This document shows positions 36,138 through 58,000 of a DNA stretch of 64,000 bases, piece after piece. Source of the stretch: Candidatus Eisenbacteria bacterium (GTDB lineage Bacteria > Eisenbacteria > RBG-16-71-46 > SZUA-252); NCBI GenBank assembly GCA_005893305.1, contig VBOZ01000017.1:77635-141634 (forward strand). Reading direction: 5' to 3'. The notes under the pieces were generated by a model. That model had not been told where the DNA came from. It ran no database searches and worked only from the letters and a program-made list of their open reading frames with translations. The position numbers and the translations under genes are program-made. Each line of letters begins with the position of its first letter. The first letter of the stretch is position 1.

Positions 36138-37253
36138 GTGAGGATTCTCCTCCTCGCGCACGCCCCGGCGGTGCACACGCGGCGCTGGGCGCAGGGGCTT
36201 CGGGAGCGCGGTCACGAGCTTCGTCTGCTGACGGCGACCGAATCGGAGGTGCCGTCCGGCGTGCCCACGCGCGTCGTCGGTTGGCCCCTGCCGATCTCGG
36301 CGCTCCGCTACGCGAGCGCCCGCAAGGCGGTCCGGCAGGAACTTCGCGCGTTCCGTCCCGACGTGACCGTCGCGCACTTCCTGCCGAGCTACGGCTTCCT
36401 CGCCGCCCTGGCGGGGGCCACCCCGTGGATGCTCGTCTGCTGGGGCTCCGATCTGCTCCGGAACGCCACGCGCACGCCATTTCATCGCGCTCGGGCGCGC
36501 TGGACGCTCCGCAGCGCGCAATTGATCCACGTCGATGCCGGGAATCTCGAAGAAGCGGCGTTGCGCTTGGGTGCCGAGCCCGAGAAGGTCTGGAAGCGCG
36601 CGTGGGGCGTCAACGTCCGCGCGCTCGAGCCAAAGGAAGCCTGGGCCGCGCGTCGCGCCGGGTCCAGCGCGCTCCGCGTCCTCTGGACACGCCAGCTCGA
36701 GACGCTCTACGACCCCGCGACCTTCGTGCGCGCGCTCGGAATCCTGGGCCGGAAGGGCGTCGCCTTCCGCGCGACCATGGCCGGAGCCGGGCCGCTTCGC
36801 CCCGACCTTGAAGCACTCGCCCGACGCGAGGGAATCGCGGAGCAGGTCGTCTTCACCGGATGGGTCGAGGGCGAGAAGCTCCTCGCGCTCTATCGGGGCC
36901 ACGATGCGTACGTTTCTCTCTCCCGGTCCGACTCGACATCGCAATCGCTCCTCGAGGGAATGGCCGCGGGCTTGGCGCCGGTGGTGACCGACATCGCCGG
37001 AAACCGGGAGTGGGTGACGCATCGGCGCGAGGGCCTGCTCGTGCCGGTCGGCGACGCGGAGGCGGTCGCCTGCGCGTTGGCCGAGATCGCGCGCGACGCG
37101 GCCACCGCCGGCGCCATGGCCGATCGCGCGCGGGCCGCCGTGACCTCCGGCGCGAGATTCGACGACACGCTCGCGGAGACGGAGGAGCGGCTCCGCGCGA
37201 TCGCGGTCACCGCCGCAGGGCGGAACGGCGCGCTCCGCGGAGACCCCGCTTGA
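36138..37253 (+). CDS. GT4-family glycosyltransferase
   Basis: The 371-residue GT-B enzyme begins VRILLLAHAPAVHTRRWAQG. It has WGSDLLRNA, LWTRQLETLYDPATFV, FTGWVEGEKLLALYRGHD and the donor-site signature SDSTSQSLLEGMAAGLAPVV. The start is GTG at 36138, eight bases after the FemAB-like gene. Its stop overlaps the TTG of the next glycosyltransferase. Donor and acceptor are unknown. Confidence 0.88.
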   Translation: MRILLLAHAPAVHTRRWAQGLRERGHELRLLTATESEVPSGVPTRVVGWPLPISALRYASARKAVRQELRAFRPDVTVAHFLPSYGFLAALAGATPWMLVCWGSDLLRNATRTPFHRARARWTLRSAQLIHVDAGNLEEAALRLGAEPEKVWKRAWGVNVRALEPKEAWAARRAGSSALRVLWTRQLETLYDPATFVRALGILGRKGVAFRATMAGAGPLRPDLEALARREGIAEQVVFTGWVEGEKLLALYRGHDAYVSLSRSDSTSQSLLEGMAAGLAPVVTDIAGNREWVTHRREGLLVPVGDAEAVACALAEIARDAATAGAMADRARAAVTSGARFDDTLAETEERLRAIAVTAAGRNGALRGDPA

Positions 37254-38587
37254 AACGGCTCCTCGTCCTCGCCTACTTCTTCCCGCCGATCGGCGGCGGC
37301 GGGTGCCAGCGTTCCCTGAAGCTCGTCCGCTACCTGGACCCGCTGGGCTGGACCTCGACTGTCGTGACCGCGCGCGATCCCGACTACTGGATCCTCGATC
37401 CCACGCTGCTCGAGGAGGTCCCCAACTCGACCGAAGTGATCCGCGCACGCGGGATGACGTCCCATCGTTTGCTCCGGCTCCTCGCGGGCGGGGGCGTGGC
37501 GGTCGAGCGGCGGCAGGGCGGGCGCGACCCGCGCTCGTTTCAAGCATTGAGGAAGCTTCAGTCGTGGCTCCTCATCCCGGACGGATATCTGCCGTGGGCG
37601 CGGGAGGCGGAGCGAGCCGCGGCCCGGCGCATCGAGGCGGGAGGCGTGGATGCGATCTGGACCACGTCGTCCCCGGAGAGCGCCCATCTGGCGGGGAAGG
37701 GTCTCAAGCGGCGCTTCGGCCTCCCGTGGATCGCGGACTTCCGCGATCCCTGGGTCGGGCGCGTAACGTACGCGCCGCCGACGCCGTGGCACGACGGGCG
37801 TCACCGCGCGCTCGAGCGCGCGGTCGTCGAAGCGGCCGACCGAGTCACGCTCGTGAGCGAGGCGATGGTCGCTCTGTACCAGGGGCGATATCCCGGCCTT
37901 CCGCCGGAGCGCTTCGTCTACGTTCCGAACGGCGTCGATTCGGACGACTGGCGCCGGGTCGACCGGCTGACGCCCACGGCCGCGTCGATCGAAGAGGAGA
38001 ATCGCGACCGCGGGAGGCTCGTCCTCCTGCACGCAGGGCAGCTCGCGCATCGTCCCACGGCACGCACGCTGCTCGGGGCCGTGCGGCGGGTGATCGAAGC
38101 GGATCCCTCGGCCGAGGAATGGATCAGGCTCCGGTTCCTCGGTGGGAACGAGGAGCTTCTCCCGGACGATCTCGAAGACCTTCAAGGGATCGTCGAGCTC
38201 GAGCCATCCCGGCCGCACCTCGAGGCCCTCGCCGCCATGAAACGGGCCGGGGCGCTCGTCCTGCTTGGGCACGGCGGAGAAGCCGATGCGCTCCTCTACA
38301 CCGGCAAAATCTACGAATACCTGACAAGCGGGCGCCCCGTGCTCGGGATACTGGACCCCGGCCCGGGCGCCGACCTACTCCGGGCATCGGGCGCGGGTCC
38401 AGTTTGCTCGGCCCGCGACGAGGGGGCCACCGCCGAGGCGATCGGACGCCTGTTCTCCGAGTGGCGCCGCGGCGGGGGTCTCTCCTCCGCGCCGCCCCGG
38501 CCGCAGGCCCCGGAATGGGAGCGAAGCGCCGTCGCGGCGCGGGTCGCAGGGCTCCTCTCCGGCCTCGATTCACACCCCCGCAACTAG
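37250..38587 (+). CDS. GT4-like glycosyltransferase
   Basis: The 445-residue protein starts KRLLVLAYFFPPIGGGGCQR, a common N-terminus for GT-B enzymes of exopolysaccharide loci. It has WIADFRDPW, VYVPNGVDSDDWRR, VLLHAGQLAHRPTARTLL and the donor-binding KIYEYLTSGRPVLG. The TTG at 37250 overlaps the upstream stop (TTGA). It is the last gene of the glycan region; a 194-nt gap with the dcw promoter follows. No terminator hairpin was seen after its stop. Confidence 0.87.
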   Translation: MKRLLVLAYFFPPIGGGGCQRSLKLVRYLDPLGWTSTVVTARDPDYWILDPTLLEEVPNSTEVIRARGMTSHRLLRLLAGGGVAVERRQGGRDPRSFQALRKLQSWLLIPDGYLPWAREAERAAARRIEAGGVDAIWTTSSPESAHLAGKGLKRRFGLPWIADFRDPWVGRVTYAPPTPWHDGRHRALERAVVEAADRVTLVSEAMVALYQGRYPGLPPERFVYVPNGVDSDDWRRVDRLTPTAASIEEENRDRGRLVLLHAGQLAHRPTARTLLGAVRRVIEADPSAEEWIRLRFLGGNEELLPDDLEDLQGIVELEPSRPHLEALAAMKRAGALVLLGHGGEADALLYTGKIYEYLTSGRPVLGILDPGPGADLLRASGAGPVCSARDEGATAEAIGRLFSEWRRGGGLSSAPPRPQAPEWERSAVAARVAGLLSGLDSHPRN

Positions 38588-38667: not shown

Positions 38668-38696
38668 TTGACACCCCTTGGGTGCGGACGTACGAT
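38668..38696 (+). promoter_or_regulatory. Sigma70-type promoter of the dcw cluster
   Basis: A perfect -35 TTGACA (38668-38673), a 17-nt spacer and TACGAT (38691-38696) form the best housekeeping promoter in the window. It lies 86 nt before mraZ. An AT-rich stretch (about 38613-38654) just upstream stands out in this GC-rich DNA and could act as an UP element. Transcription would start near 38703. Confidence 0.85.
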
Positions 38697-38704
38697 GCGG
38701 CGCG

Positions 38705-38729
38705 TGGTGAATTGTGGGACGAAGTGGGG
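38705..38729 (+). promoter_or_regulatory. Triple MraZ-type operator (TGGNN repeats with 10-bp period)
   Basis: TGGTG (38705-38709), TGGGA (38715-38719) and TGGGG (38725-38729) are direct repeats separated by exactly five bases. MraZ of Escherichia coli is known to bind TGGGN repeats with five-base spacing upstream of its own gene. The array lies just downstream of the -10 box, over or after the predicted start of transcription, which suits autorepression of the dcw cluster. The first repeat deviates in its fourth base. Confidence 0.75.
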
Positions 38730-38781: not shown

Positions 38782-39222
38782 ATGGCGACGTTCCGCGGCA
38801 GTTACAAGCATTCCATTGATCACAAGGGGCGGGTGAGCATCCCTGCTCGCTTCCGGCGCCTCTTGTCGGGAGACGCGAGCGAGACGTTCGTGGTCCTCCG
38901 CGGTCTCGACGCTTGCGTCTCCCTCTTCCCGGCGGACGAGTTCAAGCGGCTCGAGGATCGACTCCGCTCCCGCTCATTCAGCGATCCAACCCATCGCCGC
39001 TACCAGCGCCATATGCTCCTCGACTCGCGCGATGAAACGCTCGACGCGCAGGGCCGCGTCGCGATTCCGCCGAGCCTCATCGCGCACGCCGCGCTGAAAA
39101 AGGAAGTGCTGGTGAACGGCGTGCTCGATCACATCGAAATCTGGAGTCCGGAAGAGTTCGAGAAATACATGGCCTCCTCGGACCGCACGTACGAGGACAT
39201 GGCCGGAGAGCTTCTCCTGTGA
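38782..39222 (+). CDS. mraZ: Transcriptional regulator MraZ
   Basis: The 146-residue protein has two SpoVT/AbrB-type halves: FRGSYKHSIDHKGRVSIPAR with FRRLL at the N-terminus, and MLLDSRDETLDAQGRVAIPP in the second half. MraZ is a ring-forming DNA-binding protein that represses the dcw operon. The TGGNN triple repeat upstream is its probable operator. The start ATG has AAGGGA about 7-12 nt upstream. Its stop overlaps the STAS gene's GTG. Confidence 0.95.
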   Translation: MATFRGSYKHSIDHKGRVSIPARFRRLLSGDASETFVVLRGLDACVSLFPADEFKRLEDRLRSRSFSDPTHRRYQRHMLLDSRDETLDAQGRVAIPPSLIAHAALKKEVLVNGVLDHIEIWSPEEFEKYMASSDRTYEDMAGELLL

Positions 39223-39671
39223 CGCGCGCGACGATCGATTCGCGAGCGGCGGGCGCGGCGGATCGACCCACCTATCAGTGGGAGGCCGCGCGCGGCGGCG
39301 CGCTCAAGCTCCGACTCTTCGGCAGCCTCGGGCGCCGGGAGCTCACGCGCGTCGTCGACGCGATGGTCGAGTCCGGAGGCTCTCCGCGCGACTCCCTTCG
39401 CATCGACTTCGAAGACGTGAGCCATCTGGATTACCGGGGTCTCTCGGAATTCACGTTGGCGCTCCAGCGCCTGCGCGATCGGGGAGCCTCGATCTGGTTT
39501 GTCGGGCTGAATCCGTACCTGCGCGCGCTCTTCCATGTGGCCGGCCAGGCGCCGGCTCTGAGCCGTCTCGAATGGCGCGCGACCGACTTCGAATCTGCGA
39601 GCTTCGCCCGCAGCCCCGCCGGAATTCCGGGGGCCGCCCGGGCGGAAGCCTGGGGCAAGACCAGGTACTAG
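39219..39671 (+). CDS. STAS-domain protein inside the dcw cluster
   Basis: The 150-residue protein has a single STAS fold (about 18-115) of the anti-sigma-factor-antagonist type: LKLRLFGSLGRRELTRVV, then FEDVSHLDYRGLSEFTLALQ and GASIWFVGLNPYLRALFHVAG. In classical anti-anti-sigma factors the phosphorylated Ser lies in D-S-S-G-L; here the site reads DYRGL, so it cannot be switched in the usual way. No anti-sigma kinase is nearby. It lies between mraZ and rsmH with a 4-nt overlap upstream and a 10-nt gap downstream, so it should be co-expressed with division genes. Its partner is unknown. Confidence 0.8.
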   Translation: MTRATIDSRAAGAADRPTYQWEAARGGALKLRLFGSLGRRELTRVVDAMVESGGSPRDSLRIDFEDVSHLDYRGLSEFTLALQRLRDRGASIWFVGLNPYLRALFHVAGQAPALSRLEWRATDFESASFARSPAGIPGAARAEAWGKTRY

Positions 39672-39681
39672 GGGATCGCCG

Positions 39682-40599
39682 ATGCCGGGTCACGTCCCGG
39701 TACTGAGGCAGGAGGCCGTGCGGCTGCTGGTGACCGACCCTGGGGGAACGTATTTGGACGCGACCCTGGGGTTGGGCGGCCACAGCCGCGAAATCGTGGC
39801 GGCGTTGGGAGGGGAGGAGGCTAGGGTCATCGCAATGGATTGCGATCCGGCGGCGGTCGAGCGCGCTCGCGCGAATCCGCCGGCGCCGCCACACCGATTC
39901 ACCGCCGTCCGCGGGCGGTTCTCCGAGATCGATCAGGTTCTCGGGGGGCTCGGCATCACGGGCGTGCATGGCCTGCTGGCCGATCTCGGCATCTCCTCGG
40001 ACCAGCTGGACGATCCGGCGCGGGGTCTCTCCTTCGCCCAGGATGGCCCGCTCGACATGCGCCTCGATCCGTCGCTCCCGATGACGGCGGACGCGTGGAT
40101 CCGGGGAACGGACGACCGCGCCCTCGAGGCGGCCCTCCAATCGTACGGGGAGCTGCCCCGGGCCCGCGCCGCGACGCGCGCGATCCGACGCGCGGCGTCC
40201 GAGCACCATCCGCTCACGACGCGCACGCTTCGAGAGGCGCTCCAGCCGATCTATCCCGGTCCATCGCGGCCCCGCCGGATCGCGCAGGCCTTCCAGGCGC
40301 TCCGGATCGCCGTGAACCACGAGCTCGAGGAGCTCTCCGCGCTGCTCGAGATCGCGGCGCGCGTCGTTCTGCCCGGCGGCACGCTCTGCGTCATCGCCTA
40401 TCACTCGCTCGAAGACCGAATGGTGAAAACCGCCATCCGCCCGCCGCGCCCCATGGACGCGTGGGTGGAGCCGACCCCGTCGCCGTGGGTGCCGTTGACC
40501 CCGCGGCCGATCCGCCCCTCGGTTGAAGAAGTCCGCTTGAACCCGCGTGCCTCGAGCGCGCGCCTTCGAGCGGCACGGAGAAAGGAGACTGGTTCGTGA
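39682..40599 (+). CDS. rsmH: 16S rRNA (cytosine-1402-N4) methyltransferase RsmH
   Basis: The 305-residue enzyme (formerly MraW) methylates C1402 of 16S rRNA using S-adenosylmethionine. It starts HVPVLRQEAVRLL and has the SAM-binding TLGLGGHSREI and MDCDPAAVERA, then GLLADLGISSDQLDDPARGL, QAFQALRIAVNHELEEL and the C-terminal NPRASSARLRAARR. This is its usual dcw position. The C-terminal region overlaps ftsL by 4 nt (GTGA). Confidence 0.95.
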   Translation: MPGHVPVLRQEAVRLLVTDPGGTYLDATLGLGGHSREIVAALGGEEARVIAMDCDPAAVERARANPPAPPHRFTAVRGRFSEIDQVLGGLGITGVHGLLADLGISSDQLDDPARGLSFAQDGPLDMRLDPSLPMTADAWIRGTDDRALEAALQSYGELPRARAATRAIRRAASEHHPLTTRTLREALQPIYPGPSRPRRIAQAFQALRIAVNHELEELSALLEIAARVVLPGGTLCVIAYHSLEDRMVKTAIRPPRPMDAWVEPTPSPWVPLTPRPIRPSVEEVRLNPRASSARLRAARRKETGS

Positions 40600-41144
40600 G
40601 CGTAGCCAGCAACATTCTCGAGATTGTGACCCCCGGCGGAGCGATTTCCGGACGGTCGGGAGGCGCCCCGGCGCGCGCTTCCGCGAGGGCCGATTCCGGC
40701 CGCGTCTACCTGAGGCGTTACTCGGTGCAGGCGCCGCGGCCCCGGTACGGCAAGCTGCTCCTCGCGCTCTTCGTGCTGGGCTCGCTCCTCTTCTCCAAGG
40801 TCTGGGAGAGCACCATCACGAATTCCCTCTCGATGGAGCGGGAGCGGCTGCGGAGGGAAGTGCGGGGCCTCGAGAACCGGATCCGTCTCTCGTCGGAGCT
40901 CCGCGACCAGGCGGCGCTGCGCGAGGGAATCGATTCCCAGACGCTGCGCGCGCAGGGATTCGTCGCCCCCGATCCGGCGCGGATCATCGAGATCGATCTG
41001 GATCAGGCGATCCCGCGCGCCGTTTCGCGACCCGGAGTGGTCGACCGGCTCGGCGCGTTCTTCCGGCGAATTCACAAGGGCCGACCCGCGCCGCTTGACG
41101 CGGACGTCACGGCCGTGCCGGTGCGGGCGGCGGTGGGTCGATGA
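40596..41144 (+). CDS. ftsL: FtsL-like cell division protein
   Basis: The 182-residue protein has FtsL topology: a cytoplasmic N-terminus of about 48 residues, one membrane helix (LLLALFVLGSLLFSKVW, about 51-67) and a coiled-coil stretch (MERERLRREVRGLENRIRLS, about 77-96). A longer tail follows. FtsL connects FtsB, FtsQ and the FtsWI synthase. Sequence conservation in this family is low, so the call rests on topology and on position between rsmH and ftsI. The N-terminus is longer than usual. GTG start and ATGA stop overlaps bind it to both neighbours. Confidence 0.75.
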   Translation: MSVASNILEIVTPGGAISGRSGGAPARASARADSGRVYLRRYSVQAPRPRYGKLLLALFVLGSLLFSKVWESTITNSLSMERERLRREVRGLENRIRLSSELRDQAALREGIDSQTLRAQGFVAPDPARIIEIDLDQAIPRAVSRPGVVDRLGAFFRRIHKGRPAPLDADVTAVPVRAAVGR

Positions 41145-43237
41145 GCCCGCGCGATCTTCGTCGTCTCCGCCTCATCGCGGTTCTCGGCATGGGCGCGTTC
41201 CTCTTTCTCTTCGCCCGCCTCGTCCAGATTCAATTGCTCGACCACGGCCGGTTCGCCCGGGCGGCGAGACAGCAGCAGACGCAGCGCGTGATCCTTGAGC
41301 CGGAGCGCGGCCGGATCTACGACCGTCACCTCCGCTCCCTCGCCGACAACGTCTCGTTGAGCCGGCTTTCGGTCCGTCCGAGCGACGTCAAGAACGCGGG
41401 CGCCACGCAGGCCTTCCTCGCGCAGGCGGCGGGGCCGGCGGCCGCGAGCCGCTTCCGCGCCGGCAAGGCGCGGCACGCGGCCTACGTGCGGCTCTCGCCG
41501 CACCTGACCCCCGAGCAGGAACTCGCGCTTCGCACCACGGCGCTGCCCGAGGGAGTGCACGTCGAGGAGGTGCCCAGCCGCGTCTACCCGCTCGATCTGG
41601 TGGCACGGCCCGTGGTCGGGCTCCTGGGCGGGGAAGGGCTGGGCCTCGAAGGGCTCGAGAAGATGTTCGATCGCGATCTCAGAGGAGGGAGCGGCTGGGC
41701 GACCCTCTTCAACGACAATCGGGGGATCACCTATCAGCTGCCGCAGAGCCTCGTGAAGCTTCCCGAGGCCGGCTCGAGCATCATCACGACGATCGATCTC
41801 GATGCGCAGTCGATCGCCGCGCTGAAGCTGCGCGAGGCGGTCGAGCGGACCGGCGCGAAGAGCGGCATGGCCGTCTTCGCCGATCCCAGGACCGGCGACA
41901 TTCTCGCGATGGTGACCGTGGACGATCCGCGCCGGCCGGGCGGCGACGGACACCGGAACCGTCTGATCGCGGACCAGTACGAGCCCGGCTCCACGTTCAA
42001 GATCCTTGCAGGTTGCGCCGCGCTCGAGGGGCGTGTCTTTGCCCCATCCGATTCCTTCTGGGTCGAGCGCGGCGAAGGTGATTTCGGCGGGTTCACGATC
42101 CACGACTCTCATCCCGAGACCCGGTGGTACTCGGTGCGCAGCGCGACGGCGCTCTCGAGCAACGTCTGCTACGCGCGGATCGGTACCCGCCTTGGCGCGG
42201 CGACGCTCTACGACTTCGCCCGTCTTTTCGGATTCGGCCAGGCCACCCGCATCTCGCTGCCCGGAGAGGCGCCCGGCCAGATCCGGCATCCGGACCGGTG
42301 GTCGAAGCGCTCGCTCGCGACCATCTCGATCGGCCAGGAGGTCCTGGTCACGCCGATCCAGATGCTGATGGCCTACGCCGCGGTCGCGAACGGGGGCATC
42401 CTCCTCCGTCCCCGGATCGTCTCGGCGGTGGTCGACCCGGACGGCGAGCCGATACGGGAGGTCCCGATCGAGCAGGTCCGGCGCGTGATCTCATCGGAGA
42501 CGGCGAGGACGTTCCGCTCGTTCCTGCGCGACGCGGTGACCCAGGGGACGGCCACGGAAGCGGCTCTGCCCTGGTGCGAGGTGGCCGGAAAGACCGGCAC
42601 GGCCCAGAAGACCGTGGAGAACGAGCGCGGTTACGGGGTAGGTCGCTACATCTCTTCCTTCATCGGAATGGCCCCCGCTGCCGACCCGGTCGTGGTCGGG
42701 CTCATCATCCTGGACGAGCCCAGGGGCGCCTATTACGGCGGCTCCGTCGCGGCCCCGGTCTTCCGGGAAATCCTGGCCGCATGGGCGCTCCAGGGACGCG
42801 GACCGATCGCGCTCCCACCCTCCACCGTCGTACGGGTCGATGACGAGGCCCCGGCGGCCGACGCGGTGCCCGACGTACGCCTGCTCGAGCTGAGCCGGGC
42901 GCGGGAGGAGCTGGCCCGGGCCGGATACGGAATGCGCGTCGCCGGGATGGGCGCCGTCGGAGGGCGGGTCTCGACCCAGTTGCCCGAGGCTCGGACGGCG
43001 GCGCGACCCGGAACCGTGGTCGAGCTGACCCTCGCGGCGCTCGAAGAGGAGGATGCGGCGGTGCCCGATCTCCGCGGTCTCGCGCTTCGCCAGGCGCTCT
43101 CGCGGCTCAGCGCCGTGGCCATCGAGATCGGAAGAGTGCGGGGAAGCGGCGTGGTCGTCGATCAGACGCCCGCGCCGGGCGAGCCGGCGCGAAAGGGAAC
43201 CAAGTGCTCGCTGGTCCTGTCTCCGCGGGGCACGTGA
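41141..43237 (+). CDS. ftsI: Septal peptidoglycan transpeptidase FtsI (class B PBP) with two PASTA domains
   Basis: The 698-residue protein has an N-terminal membrane helix (about 12-30) and a PBP dimer domain with ILEPERGRIYDR. The transpeptidase domain carries STFK (nucleophile Ser near residue 284), SSN (about 338-340) and KTGTAQ (about 484-489). Two PASTA modules follow (about 575-635 and 638-698; PDVRLLELSRAREELARAGY and PDLRGLALRQALSRL). It cross-links septal peptidoglycan with FtsW. PASTA tails are typical of PBP2x/SpoVD-type proteins and occur in some Gram-negative phyla. They are absent from E. coli FtsI. Confidence 0.93.
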   Translation: MSPRDLRRLRLIAVLGMGAFLFLFARLVQIQLLDHGRFARAARQQQTQRVILEPERGRIYDRHLRSLADNVSLSRLSVRPSDVKNAGATQAFLAQAAGPAAASRFRAGKARHAAYVRLSPHLTPEQELALRTTALPEGVHVEEVPSRVYPLDLVARPVVGLLGGEGLGLEGLEKMFDRDLRGGSGWATLFNDNRGITYQLPQSLVKLPEAGSSIITTIDLDAQSIAALKLREAVERTGAKSGMAVFADPRTGDILAMVTVDDPRRPGGDGHRNRLIADQYEPGSTFKILAGCAALEGRVFAPSDSFWVERGEGDFGGFTIHDSHPETRWYSVRSATALSSNVCYARIGTRLGAATLYDFARLFGFGQATRISLPGEAPGQIRHPDRWSKRSLATISIGQEVLVTPIQMLMAYAAVANGGILLRPRIVSAVVDPDGEPIREVPIEQVRRVISSETARTFRSFLRDAVTQGTATEAALPWCEVAGKTGTAQKTVENERGYGVGRYISSFIGMAPAADPVVVGLIILDEPRGAYYGGSVAAPVFREILAAWALQGRGPIALPPSTVVRVDDEAPAADAVPDVRLLELSRAREELARAGYGMRVAGMGAVGGRVSTQLPEARTAARPGTVVELTLAALEEEDAAVPDLRGLALRQALSRLSAVAIEIGRVRGSGVVVDQTPAPGEPARKGTKCSLVLSPRGT

Positions 43238-56007: not shown

Positions 56008-56177
56008 CGGTTCGGCCCGTTTCGCAGCGCCACACTGAGATCCCGCCCCGTGCGGTTTGCCCCATTCGACGAGGGCGACCTGCACGGGGCCGCACCGCGC
56101 CTGGAGCCAAAAATCGAGCCTCACGCCGCGCGTATCCCATTGCCATTTAGCTAATTGCGGGAGCCGGCCACAACCCC

Positions 56178-56192
56178 TGGCACATCGGTTGC
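56178..56192 (+). promoter_or_regulatory. Sigma54 (-24/-12) promoter of the minor-pilin operon
   Basis: TGGCAC (56178-56183), ATCGG, then TTGC (56189-56192) matches the sigma54 consensus TGGCAC-N5-TTGC at every fixed position. Transcription would begin near 56204, giving a 45-nt leader before the GTG at 56249. Sigma54 and the NtrC-type regulator PilR control pilin genes in several Gram-negative bacteria, so the location is biologically sensible. The upstream half of this gap (56010-56160) should hold the activator site; a GTGCGG/CCGCAC inverted repeat near 56050-56096 is a weak candidate. Confidence 0.85.
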
Positions 56193-56248
56193 GTCCTATG
56201 GTGTGGAAGAAACTTGACGCGCGACGCGGTGCCGGGGGGCGAACAAGA

Positions 56249-56737
56249 GTGAAGGCGTTCCATCGCAGCGGCTTCACGCTGGTCGAGATCATGGTCGCGG
56301 TCGTGGTGGCCGGCGTCCTGATGGCCGCCGGGCTTCCCTCGTTCATTCATTTCTCCCGCTCCCTCTCCCAGAAACAAGCACGCGACCTCCTCGAAGGATC
56401 GCTCCGACTCGCCCGCCAGCAGGCCGTGACCTCCCACCGGCCGATCGTGGTGGCGTTCGGAAACGGGATCTCCACGGCGGGCGTCACGACCTACAGCGTC
56501 CACACCGACGTGAACGGCGATCGCGTCAAGCAGATCGGTGAGCCATGGAAGTCGTTCACGCTGCCGGGCGGTACCCAGCTGACGTCGGTCTCGCTCTCGC
56601 CGATCGATTCCGTGATCTTCGACTCGAGCGGCGCGCTCGCCCCGAGCGTCACGGGCGGATCGGTCGTCGTCGGCGGCCAAAGCGGCGACCTCGACACGCT
56701 GCTCATCTCGGCGACCGGCCTGGTCTACCGCCCATGA
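56249..56737 (+). CDS. GspH/FimT-like pseudopilin
   Basis: The 162-residue protein has a short basic leader and the type IV prepilin site: KAFHRSG then FTLVEIMVAVVVAGVLMAAG, with cleavage after Gly and the conserved Glu at +5. The mature part resembles GspH/FimT minor pilins (QARDLLEGSLRLARQQAV, then a beta-rich domain). Start GTG 56249 is favoured over ATG 56198 because that ATG would lie upstream of the predicted sigma54 transcription start, and because it gives a normal leader of seven residues. The stop overlaps the PilV-like gene (ATGA). Confidence 0.88.
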   Translation: MKAFHRSGFTLVEIMVAVVVAGVLMAAGLPSFIHFSRSLSQKQARDLLEGSLRLARQQAVTSHRPIVVAFGNGISTAGVTTYSVHTDVNGDRVKQIGEPWKSFTLPGGTQLTSVSLSPIDSVIFDSSGALAPSVTGGSVVVGGQSGDLDTLLISATGLVYRP

Positions 56738-57123
56738 CGCGCCGAGCCCAATCCGGCTTCACGCTCGTCGAAGTGCTCGTGGCGCTGATGGTGTTCGTCA
56801 TCGGCATCCTGAGCATCGCGGCCATGATGCCGTCGGGGTCTCGCAGCGTGAACCGGTCGGGGGACGAGACGCGCGCCTCGGAGTTGGCCTCCGCGCGCGC
56901 GGAGCGGCTGCTCTCCACCAGCTACGCCGACCCGGACTTAACGGCGGGGTCGCATCCCGATCCCGCGAATCCCTACGACGGAAAATATTACGTGAGCTGG
57001 TCCGTGCAGAACGACCAGCCGATGGCTCAGTGCAAGAGAGCCACCGTGGACGTGCGCTGGCCGACGGCGCTCTCCGCCCCGGGCGCGAGCGTCGTCATCG
57101 TGGTTCCGAGATCGGGAGGCTGA
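56734..57123 (+). CDS. PilV-like minor pilin
   Basis: The 129-residue protein has the leader TRRAQSG and the prepilin helix FTLVEVLVALMVFVIGILSI, typical of PilV/GspI-type minor pilins, with +5 Glu. A short soluble domain follows. It overlaps the GspH-like gene and ends one base before the next prepilin gene. Together they should prime type IV pilus or pseudopilus assembly in the periplasm. Confidence 0.87.
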   Translation: MTRRAQSGFTLVEVLVALMVFVIGILSIAAMMPSGSRSVNRSGDETRASELASARAERLLSTSYADPDLTAGSHPDPANPYDGKYYVSWSVQNDQPMAQCKRATVDVRWPTALSAPGASVVIVVPRSGG

Positions 57124-57124
57124 C

Positions 57125-58000
57125 GTGAATCGGGTCGATCGACAGAGGTGGGCGCGCCCGGCTCGCGGATACACGCTCGTCGAGCTCATGGTCACGATGA
57201 CGATCCTGAGCGCCGTCTTGGCCGCGGTCTACTACTCGTTCTTCCGCGCGCAGTCGAGCGCGCGCCGGACCGAGCGGGTCGTGGATGCCCGGCAAGGCTC
57301 CCGCGCTGCGCTCCAGCTGATCGAGCGGGAGGTCCGGATGGTCGGCTCGGGCTGGGGCCGGATTCCGATCTACGGCGCGCTGAACGGCTCCCCGATGACG
57401 ATCCACGCCTTGGTGCCGGGCTTCACGACCGCCGCCGGGAACGATTCCCTGGAGCTCCTCGGCGGCTGGGACGCGTGCACGACGCTTCGCGCCCCGATGA
57501 CCACCCCGAGCTCCGGATCCCCGATTCCGTGCGACAGCACGACGGGGTTTCGCGCCGGCGACTTCGTTCTCGTCACGAACGGATCCACCGCGCACATCTT
57601 CCAGGTCACGGCGGTGCCGAATGCGCCGGCGGATCTGGTGCACGACGCCTCCTCGATCTACAACATGGCGGGAGGACACACGAACTGGCCCGTCGGCGGC
57701 TACCCGACCGGCTCGCGCGTCTATCGGGTCACCTGGGTGACCTACAAGGTGGACGCCACGGGCTTCAGCACGCCCTGCCTGACACGCAGGGATCAGGGAT
57801 CCGCGGCCCAGGTCGTGGCGACCGACGTGAGCGCGTTCCACGTCTGGTACCTGATGCAGGACCTCACGGAGACGCGCGACCCGGTTGATTTCAACGGAAT
57901 CGACAAGATCCGTCCGGTCATCGCAACGCAGGTGGCCGATCGTGGATCACCGTACCTCGCCGACTCGGTGTGGACGCTGGTCCGACCACGAACCTTCTAA
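57125..58000 (+). CDS. PilW/GspJ-like prepilin protein
   Basis: The 291-residue protein has a long basic leader ending ARPARG, then the prepilin helix YTLVELMVTMTILSAVLAAV with +5 Glu (Tyr at +1 replaces Phe). A large soluble domain follows, with RAALQLIEREVRMVGSGWG, a stretch typical of PilW/GspJ minor pilins. It likely sits at the pilus tip complex with the neighbouring minor pilins. GTG 57125 follows the upstream stop by one base. A 13-nt gap precedes the PilX-like gene. Confidence 0.85.
   Translation: MNRVDRQRWARPARGYTLVELMVTMTILSAVLAAVYYSFFRAQSSARRTERVVDARQGSRAALQLIEREVRMVGSGWGRIPIYGALNGSPMTIHALVPGFTTAAGNDSLELLGGWDACTTLRAPMTTPSSGSPIPCDSTTGFRAGDFVLVTNGSTAHIFQVTAVPNAPADLVHDASSIYNMAGGHTNWPVGGYPTGSRVYRVTWVTYKVDATGFSTPCLTRRDQGSAAQVVATDVSAFHVWYLMQDLTETRDPVDFNGIDKIRPVIATQVADRGSPYLADSVWTLVRPRTF

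Follow-up and report, generated by a model that had tools for sequence, protein, structure and literature searches.

Two described systems come closest to the protein reported here. SpoIIAA and RsbV are STAS-fold antagonists that depend on a phosphorylatable Ser or Thr at a switch position and on a cognate HATPase kinase encoded nearby or elsewhere in the genome. MlaB, a STAS protein encoded together with MlaF and MlaE, works without the classical sigma switch. The genomic setting is that of a third system, the dcw cluster (mraZ-rsmH-ftsL-ftsI-murE ... ftsZ), which is among the best-studied and most conserved bacterial gene orders and whose inventory is widely treated as closed. A published reconstruction of its fullest form has 17 genes, and the word STAS is absent from the text of that report (PMC8871954). 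In the open literature we found no description of a STAS protein in connection with mraZ, the dcw cluster or Myxococcus; subscription papers lay outside this scope, so we make no claim of priority. While the fold family is already known, this variant and its place in the dcw cluster appear undescribed.

Here we analysed a gene in a 64-kb stretch of Candidatus Eisenbacteria DNA, referred to below as the window. Like SpoIIAA and RsbV, its product has the STAS fold, with PDB entries 6m36, 1th8, and 1tid as best matches by both fold and sequence, and it keeps the Asp that precedes the switch position. Unlike in those antagonists, the phosphoserine is replaced by Tyr or Phe in most dcw-STAS proteins, usually followed by Arg; the window gene has no kinase or sigma factor gene nearby, and its product falls below the cut-off of the ant_ant_sig family. 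It resembles MlaB in being a small, single-domain protein of the STAS_2 type but differs from it in the aromatic residue and in being encoded between mraZ and rsmH rather than beside an Mla transporter. Compared with the canonical dcw cluster, the window carries one additional gene, embedded among the others in the same orientation, with overlaps or short gaps to the genes beside it, and preceded by a predicted promoter and MraZ box.

A STAS gene flanked by mraZ and rsmH in a putative MraZ-controlled operon

The initial annotation singled out a STAS gene as foreign to the textbook dcw order. Profile searches bore this out: the open reading frame at 39219..39671 (+ strand; 150 aa, GTG start) lies between matches to MraZ and RsmH and scores above the cut-offs of two Pfam families, STAS_2 (PF13466; E 8e-8, 32.8 bits against a cut-off of 29.2) and STAS (PF01740; E 7e-6, 26.3 bits against 22.6). 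It falls below the cut-off of NCBIfam TIGR00377, ant_ant_sig (16.7 versus 53.45 bits). An AlphaFold2 model, a single chain built from 29 sequences, has the STAS fold with a pLDDT of 81.5, and its best PDB matches in Foldseek are RsbV and SpoIIAA. By profiles above the curated cut-off and by predicted fold, the window protein is a member of the STAS domain superfamily.

The gene is tightly packed between its neighbours. It overlaps mraZ (38782..39222, + strand; PF02381 E 2e-33, TIGR00242 above cut-off) by 4 bp, the sequence GTGA placing the STAS start codon inside the mraZ stop, and the same overlap was found in 20 of the 30 distinct loci from our first search. A gap of 10 bp separates the STAS stop from the start of rsmH (mraW) at 39682 (39682..40599, + strand; PF01795 E 2.5e-74). 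Next comes an ORF of 182 aa (40596..41144, + strand), which had no match in a Pfam search and is assigned to the ftsL position by its place alone, followed by ftsI with transpeptidase and PASTA domains (41141..43237, + strand). Downstream of ftsI, the cluster runs on through Mur ligases, ftsW, murG, ftsA, and ftsZ, up to 55643. At the flanks, a gene that looks glycosyltransferase-like from its sequence (36860-38587) lies directly 5' of mraZ and is kept there in many Eisenbacteria loci (tblastn), and pilin-like genes with N_methyl and GspH matches lie 3' of ftsZ on the same strand (56057-58000).

A consensus scan placed a predicted sigma-70-like promoter, TTGACA-N17-TACGAT, upstream of mraZ (38668..38696, + strand); it has 10 of 12 consensus matches, with one such site found against 0.3 expected in shuffles. 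Located 7 bp 3' of its -10 element is a predicted MraZ box of three GTGG units (GTGGTGAATT GTGGGACGAA GTGG) with a 10-bp period (38704..38727, + strand). This triple-GTGG pattern is the sole match in the window, against 0.01 expected, and also occurs upstream of mraZ in loci L001-L010 and others. It agrees with the published MraZ site, (AAAGTGKN3)3 (PMC5282649), and is positioned like the E. coli and B. cenocepacia MraZ sites, which are downstream of the -10 (PMC7761207). The predicted promoter and box make the STAS gene the second gene of a predicted MraZ-controlled operon, and together with the overlap and the short gap at its junctions they would be compatible with co-transcription from the mraZ promoter. 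From this operon anatomy and the MraZ box, we infer that MraZ, RsmH, and the STAS protein would be co-expressed from genes that MraZ controls.

The gene order is conserved across phyla

According to the initial annotation, a position not conserved in relatives would mark the gene as a chance insertion, and a synteny survey was proposed. When we carried out that survey, mraZ-STAS-rsmH proved to be conserved across phyla. A first search produced matches in 41 of 99 genomes, and all 30 loci fetched had the order mraZ-STAS-rsmH. Internal stops in some of these matches were considered as signs of pseudogenes, an interpretation we rejected since the matches had overrun the end of the ORF. A contig scan of public genomes returned one named relative, a Candidatus Eisenbacteria MAG, with locus L001 giving the phylum. 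Within Eisenbacteria, the STAS gene adjoins mraZ in 44 of 44 genomes with a located mraZ, six of which (G023, G032, G039, G041, G044, and G046) were judged by same-contig, same-strand coordinates; in the remaining three of the 47 genomes (G012, G029, and G031), all fragmented assemblies, the search for mraZ gave no match.

The phylum of G074 was identified as Myxococcota through genus g379, whose CdnL differs from PDB entry 2lwj at 1 position in 164 and whose CarD N-terminus is identical to 2lt1 (72/72 residues); we take both entries to be M. xanthus proteins. STAS matches at E <= 1e-6 were present in 100 of 146 Myxococcota genomes sampled, with several families mostly lacking a dcw-STAS match at this threshold. 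The Myxococcota loci that were read were all syntenic except in three genomes without mraZ. In the phylum of G176 the order mraZ-STAS-rsmH was found in 10/10 genomes, and in that of G186 a match was found in 65/68, with all 30 loci read being syntenic, two of which end at a contig edge before mraZ. Further carrier families beyond Eisenbacteria are represented by G047, G052, G070, G071/G219, G076, G086, G103, G110/G251, G115/G256, and G138. The gene is thereby documented in four phyla, and sampling rounds that apparently took one genome per phylum suggest about 14.

An additional survey started from mraZ instead of STAS, which removed ascertainment by the motif. Of the 52 distant families covered, 10 proved to carry STAS in the mraZ-rsmH interval. 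Roughly four fifths of the sampled distant mraZ-bearing families are without the gene, indicating that it is not universally needed. Large mraZ-rsmH gaps lacking a profile match (L149, L151, L165, and L168) were set aside, as they hold other genes or no clear ones. A fixed cluster position across lineages, as expected of a dcw cluster gene, was found for dcw-STAS, and on this cross-phylum conservation we rejected a chance insertion. The gene is a conserved, long-retained member of the dcw operon and looks like a member of the cluster that has been overlooked.

An aromatic residue replaces the phosphoserine of the switch site

In a profile alignment to SpoIIAA, the residues F-M-D-S-S align with H69-L70-D71-Y72-R73 of the window protein (codons 39423..39437, + strand), with D-S-S set against D71-Y72-R73 and Tyr (Y72, codon 39432-39434) in place of the phosphoserine. 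The initial annotation had read this site as DYRGL in place of DSSGL, which is correct for the window. Family-wide, the exact string is not constant; what is constant is the aromatic residue at the serine position, usually within H-x-[D/N]-[Y/F]-R. The switch position is occupied by Tyr in 81 and by Phe in 13 of 102 dcw copies (together 94) and by another residue in 8, including one Ser. The 20 STAS proteins encoded elsewhere that our searches also recovered have Ser in 16 cases, Thr in 2, and Ala in 2, the two Ala coming from one protein in overlapping loci. Fisher's test of this contrast gave a value of ~1e-17, computed with 7 rather than 8 exceptions and on sequences that are related; by family, Tyr or Phe occupies the position in 30 of 35. 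Because the profile was built from Tyr/Phe-bearing sequences, the search bias opposes this contrast.

Only the dcw copy of G040 (L116, HMM-aligned site DIESR) has Ser there, and this Ser looks derived, since Tyr or Phe prevails among its relatives within the family. The five copies from the mraZ-first fetch have Phe (G076), His (G047, L152), Gly (G103, L158), Val (G110, L177), and Glu (G086, L182), with Ser or Thr in none; the last four, all from distant families, may represent a separate subgroup. A second conserved motif, GL[S/N]xY, emerged from the conservation table and ends at Y100 (codon 39516..39518, + strand). Tyr is present at this position in 91/102 dcw copies versus 2/20 other STAS proteins, and it is nearly invariant in the alignment of 29 dcw-STAS sequences. 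Since G35 and H69 are the sole strictly invariant residues in that alignment, the gene diverges fast.

Judged from these alignments, phospho-switching has been lost in the dcw-STAS protein. The phosphorylatable Ser or Thr of a SpoIIAA/RsbV-type antagonist is missing, with Tyr72 in the window and Ser in a single dcw copy, and the expectation that the protein could not act as a normal phospho-regulated anti-anti-sigma factor is upheld by Tyr or Phe in 94/102. Tyrosine phosphorylation was considered as a new switch and rejected: the presence of Phe in 13/102 copies makes a required hydroxyl at this position unlikely.

Retention in genomes without a MraZ or a HATPase_c_2 match

No protein matching MraZ at E <= 0.01 was found in G495 (assembled as one contig), G524, or G528, nor is the triple MraZ box intact there, while G466, with the same genus code, retains mraZ. 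The three mraZ-less loci (L070 in G495, L077 in G524, and L074 in G528) are from related large-genome myxobacteria. In all three genomes, the STAS gene has an intact HLDYR and is still 5' of rsmH. Retention of STAS after the loss of mraZ means that MraZ is not its sole partner, if it is a partner at all, and weakens a role involving MraZ only.

The initial annotation also proposed a search for a partner anti-sigma kinase. The window's genome has four other STAS_2 matches, all on other contigs, and three of them are <= 3 kb from HATPase_c_2 matches; the dcw contig, C17, has no HATPase_c_2 match. At E <= 1e-6, HATPase_c_2 went unmatched in seven carriers from three separate lineages (G176, G313, G530, G076, G411, G483, and G520), and an anti-sigma kinase is thus unnecessary for keeping the gene. 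In these searches, the cognate HATPase kinase that characterizes SpoIIAA/RsbV-type antagonists was missing from the dcw contig of the window's genome and from the whole genomes of the seven carriers.

Median dN/dS values for STAS were 0.33, 0.20, and 0.33 in three of the groups compared and 0.05 in the fourth, which lacks mraZ, within the range of the mraZ and rsmH values; partial saturation of dS makes these NG86 estimates rough. They show purifying selection on dcw-STAS. In a tree computed with the motif columns removed, a single dcw clade was not rejected (p-AU 0.888), with little resolution from 105 columns and 92 rows, and the dcw copies are compatible with one origin.

Discussion

We propose that dcw-STAS may be a phosphorylation-independent STAS adaptor for the division or cell-wall machinery, a reading to which we assign a probability of about 0.4. 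The protein would be made alongside MraZ and RsmH under MraZ control, and H69, D71, the aromatic residue at 72, R73, and Y100 may form a fixed docking face at the site where SpoIIAA and RsbV meet their partner. The docking face is suggested by residue conservation, the alignment, and the single-chain model from 29 sequences. Through it, a cytoplasmic adaptor could bind a dcw-encoded or other cell-division or peptidoglycan protein and tune that target in step with MraZ-controlled expression. The earlier suggestion of a structural partner in division is possible and lies near this reading. Operon membership alone is not proof of a division role.

Instead of a division protein, the partner might be a neighbour in the operon. 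STAS could bind RsmH, a 16S rRNA methyltransferase, and modulate its activity or stability, given that rsmH is directly 3' of STAS wherever the contig continues, including in the mraZ-less genomes. We consider this unlikely, as operon order also explains the adjacency and rsmH follows mraZ without STAS in most other families. Binding to the MraZ ring to adjust MraZ control of the dcw operon would fit the predicted MraZ box upstream, the usual position of mraZ as 5' neighbour, and the 4-bp coupled overlap described above, but the genomes without MraZ or an intact triple box keep the STAS motif at a dN/dS of ~0.05, and we regard such a co-regulator as rather improbable.

Other explanations look to the family of the protein. 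The initial annotation raised a constitutive antagonist, which in anti-anti-sigma terms would be an unphosphorylatable factor that permanently sequesters an RsbW/SpoIIAB-type kinase. Its nearest solved structures, RsbV and SpoIIAA, would fit such a factor, and HATPase_c_2 proteins do occur near other STAS genes in the window's genome; the seven carriers without HATPase_c_2, the lack of a match on C17, and the retention of Ser/Thr in STAS proteins outside the cluster nonetheless disfavour it, leaving little probability for this role. It is very unlikely that the protein is an MlaB-type subunit of an ABC lipid transporter whose gene happens to sit in the dcw operon. STAS_2, which we take to include MlaB, is the best Pfam family, and MlaB structures are among the fold matches, but they rank under RsbV and SpoIIAA there and are absent from the PDB sequence search. 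MlaB itself retains Thr at the switch site, and MlaF/MlaE co-encoding was not observed, as no mla gene adjoins dcw-STAS and its immediate neighbours in the loci read are mraZ and rsmH. Wide sequence variation outside the motifs might suggest a neutral passenger or a decaying gene trapped in the operon, an idea made barely credible by cross-phylum retention in place, the fixed altered site, and purifying selection.

The adaptor reading leads to a more far-reaching and more tentative proposal. An ancient, non-phosphorylated STAS protein may be core to the division and cell-wall operon of several phyla, linking the divisome to RsmH or to MraZ-controlled expression in organisms such as Myxococcus, and may have been missed because it is absent from the dcw clusters of E. 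coli and B. subtilis. An extra conserved gene at the regulatory front of the dcw cluster, in the genetically tractable Myxococcus, could lead directly to a new factor in division or wall synthesis or, alternatively, to the reason why mraZ and rsmH sit together. The family, a natural collection of STAS proteins in which the absence of a phospho-switch has become fixed, could help to show what roles the fold has beyond partner switching.
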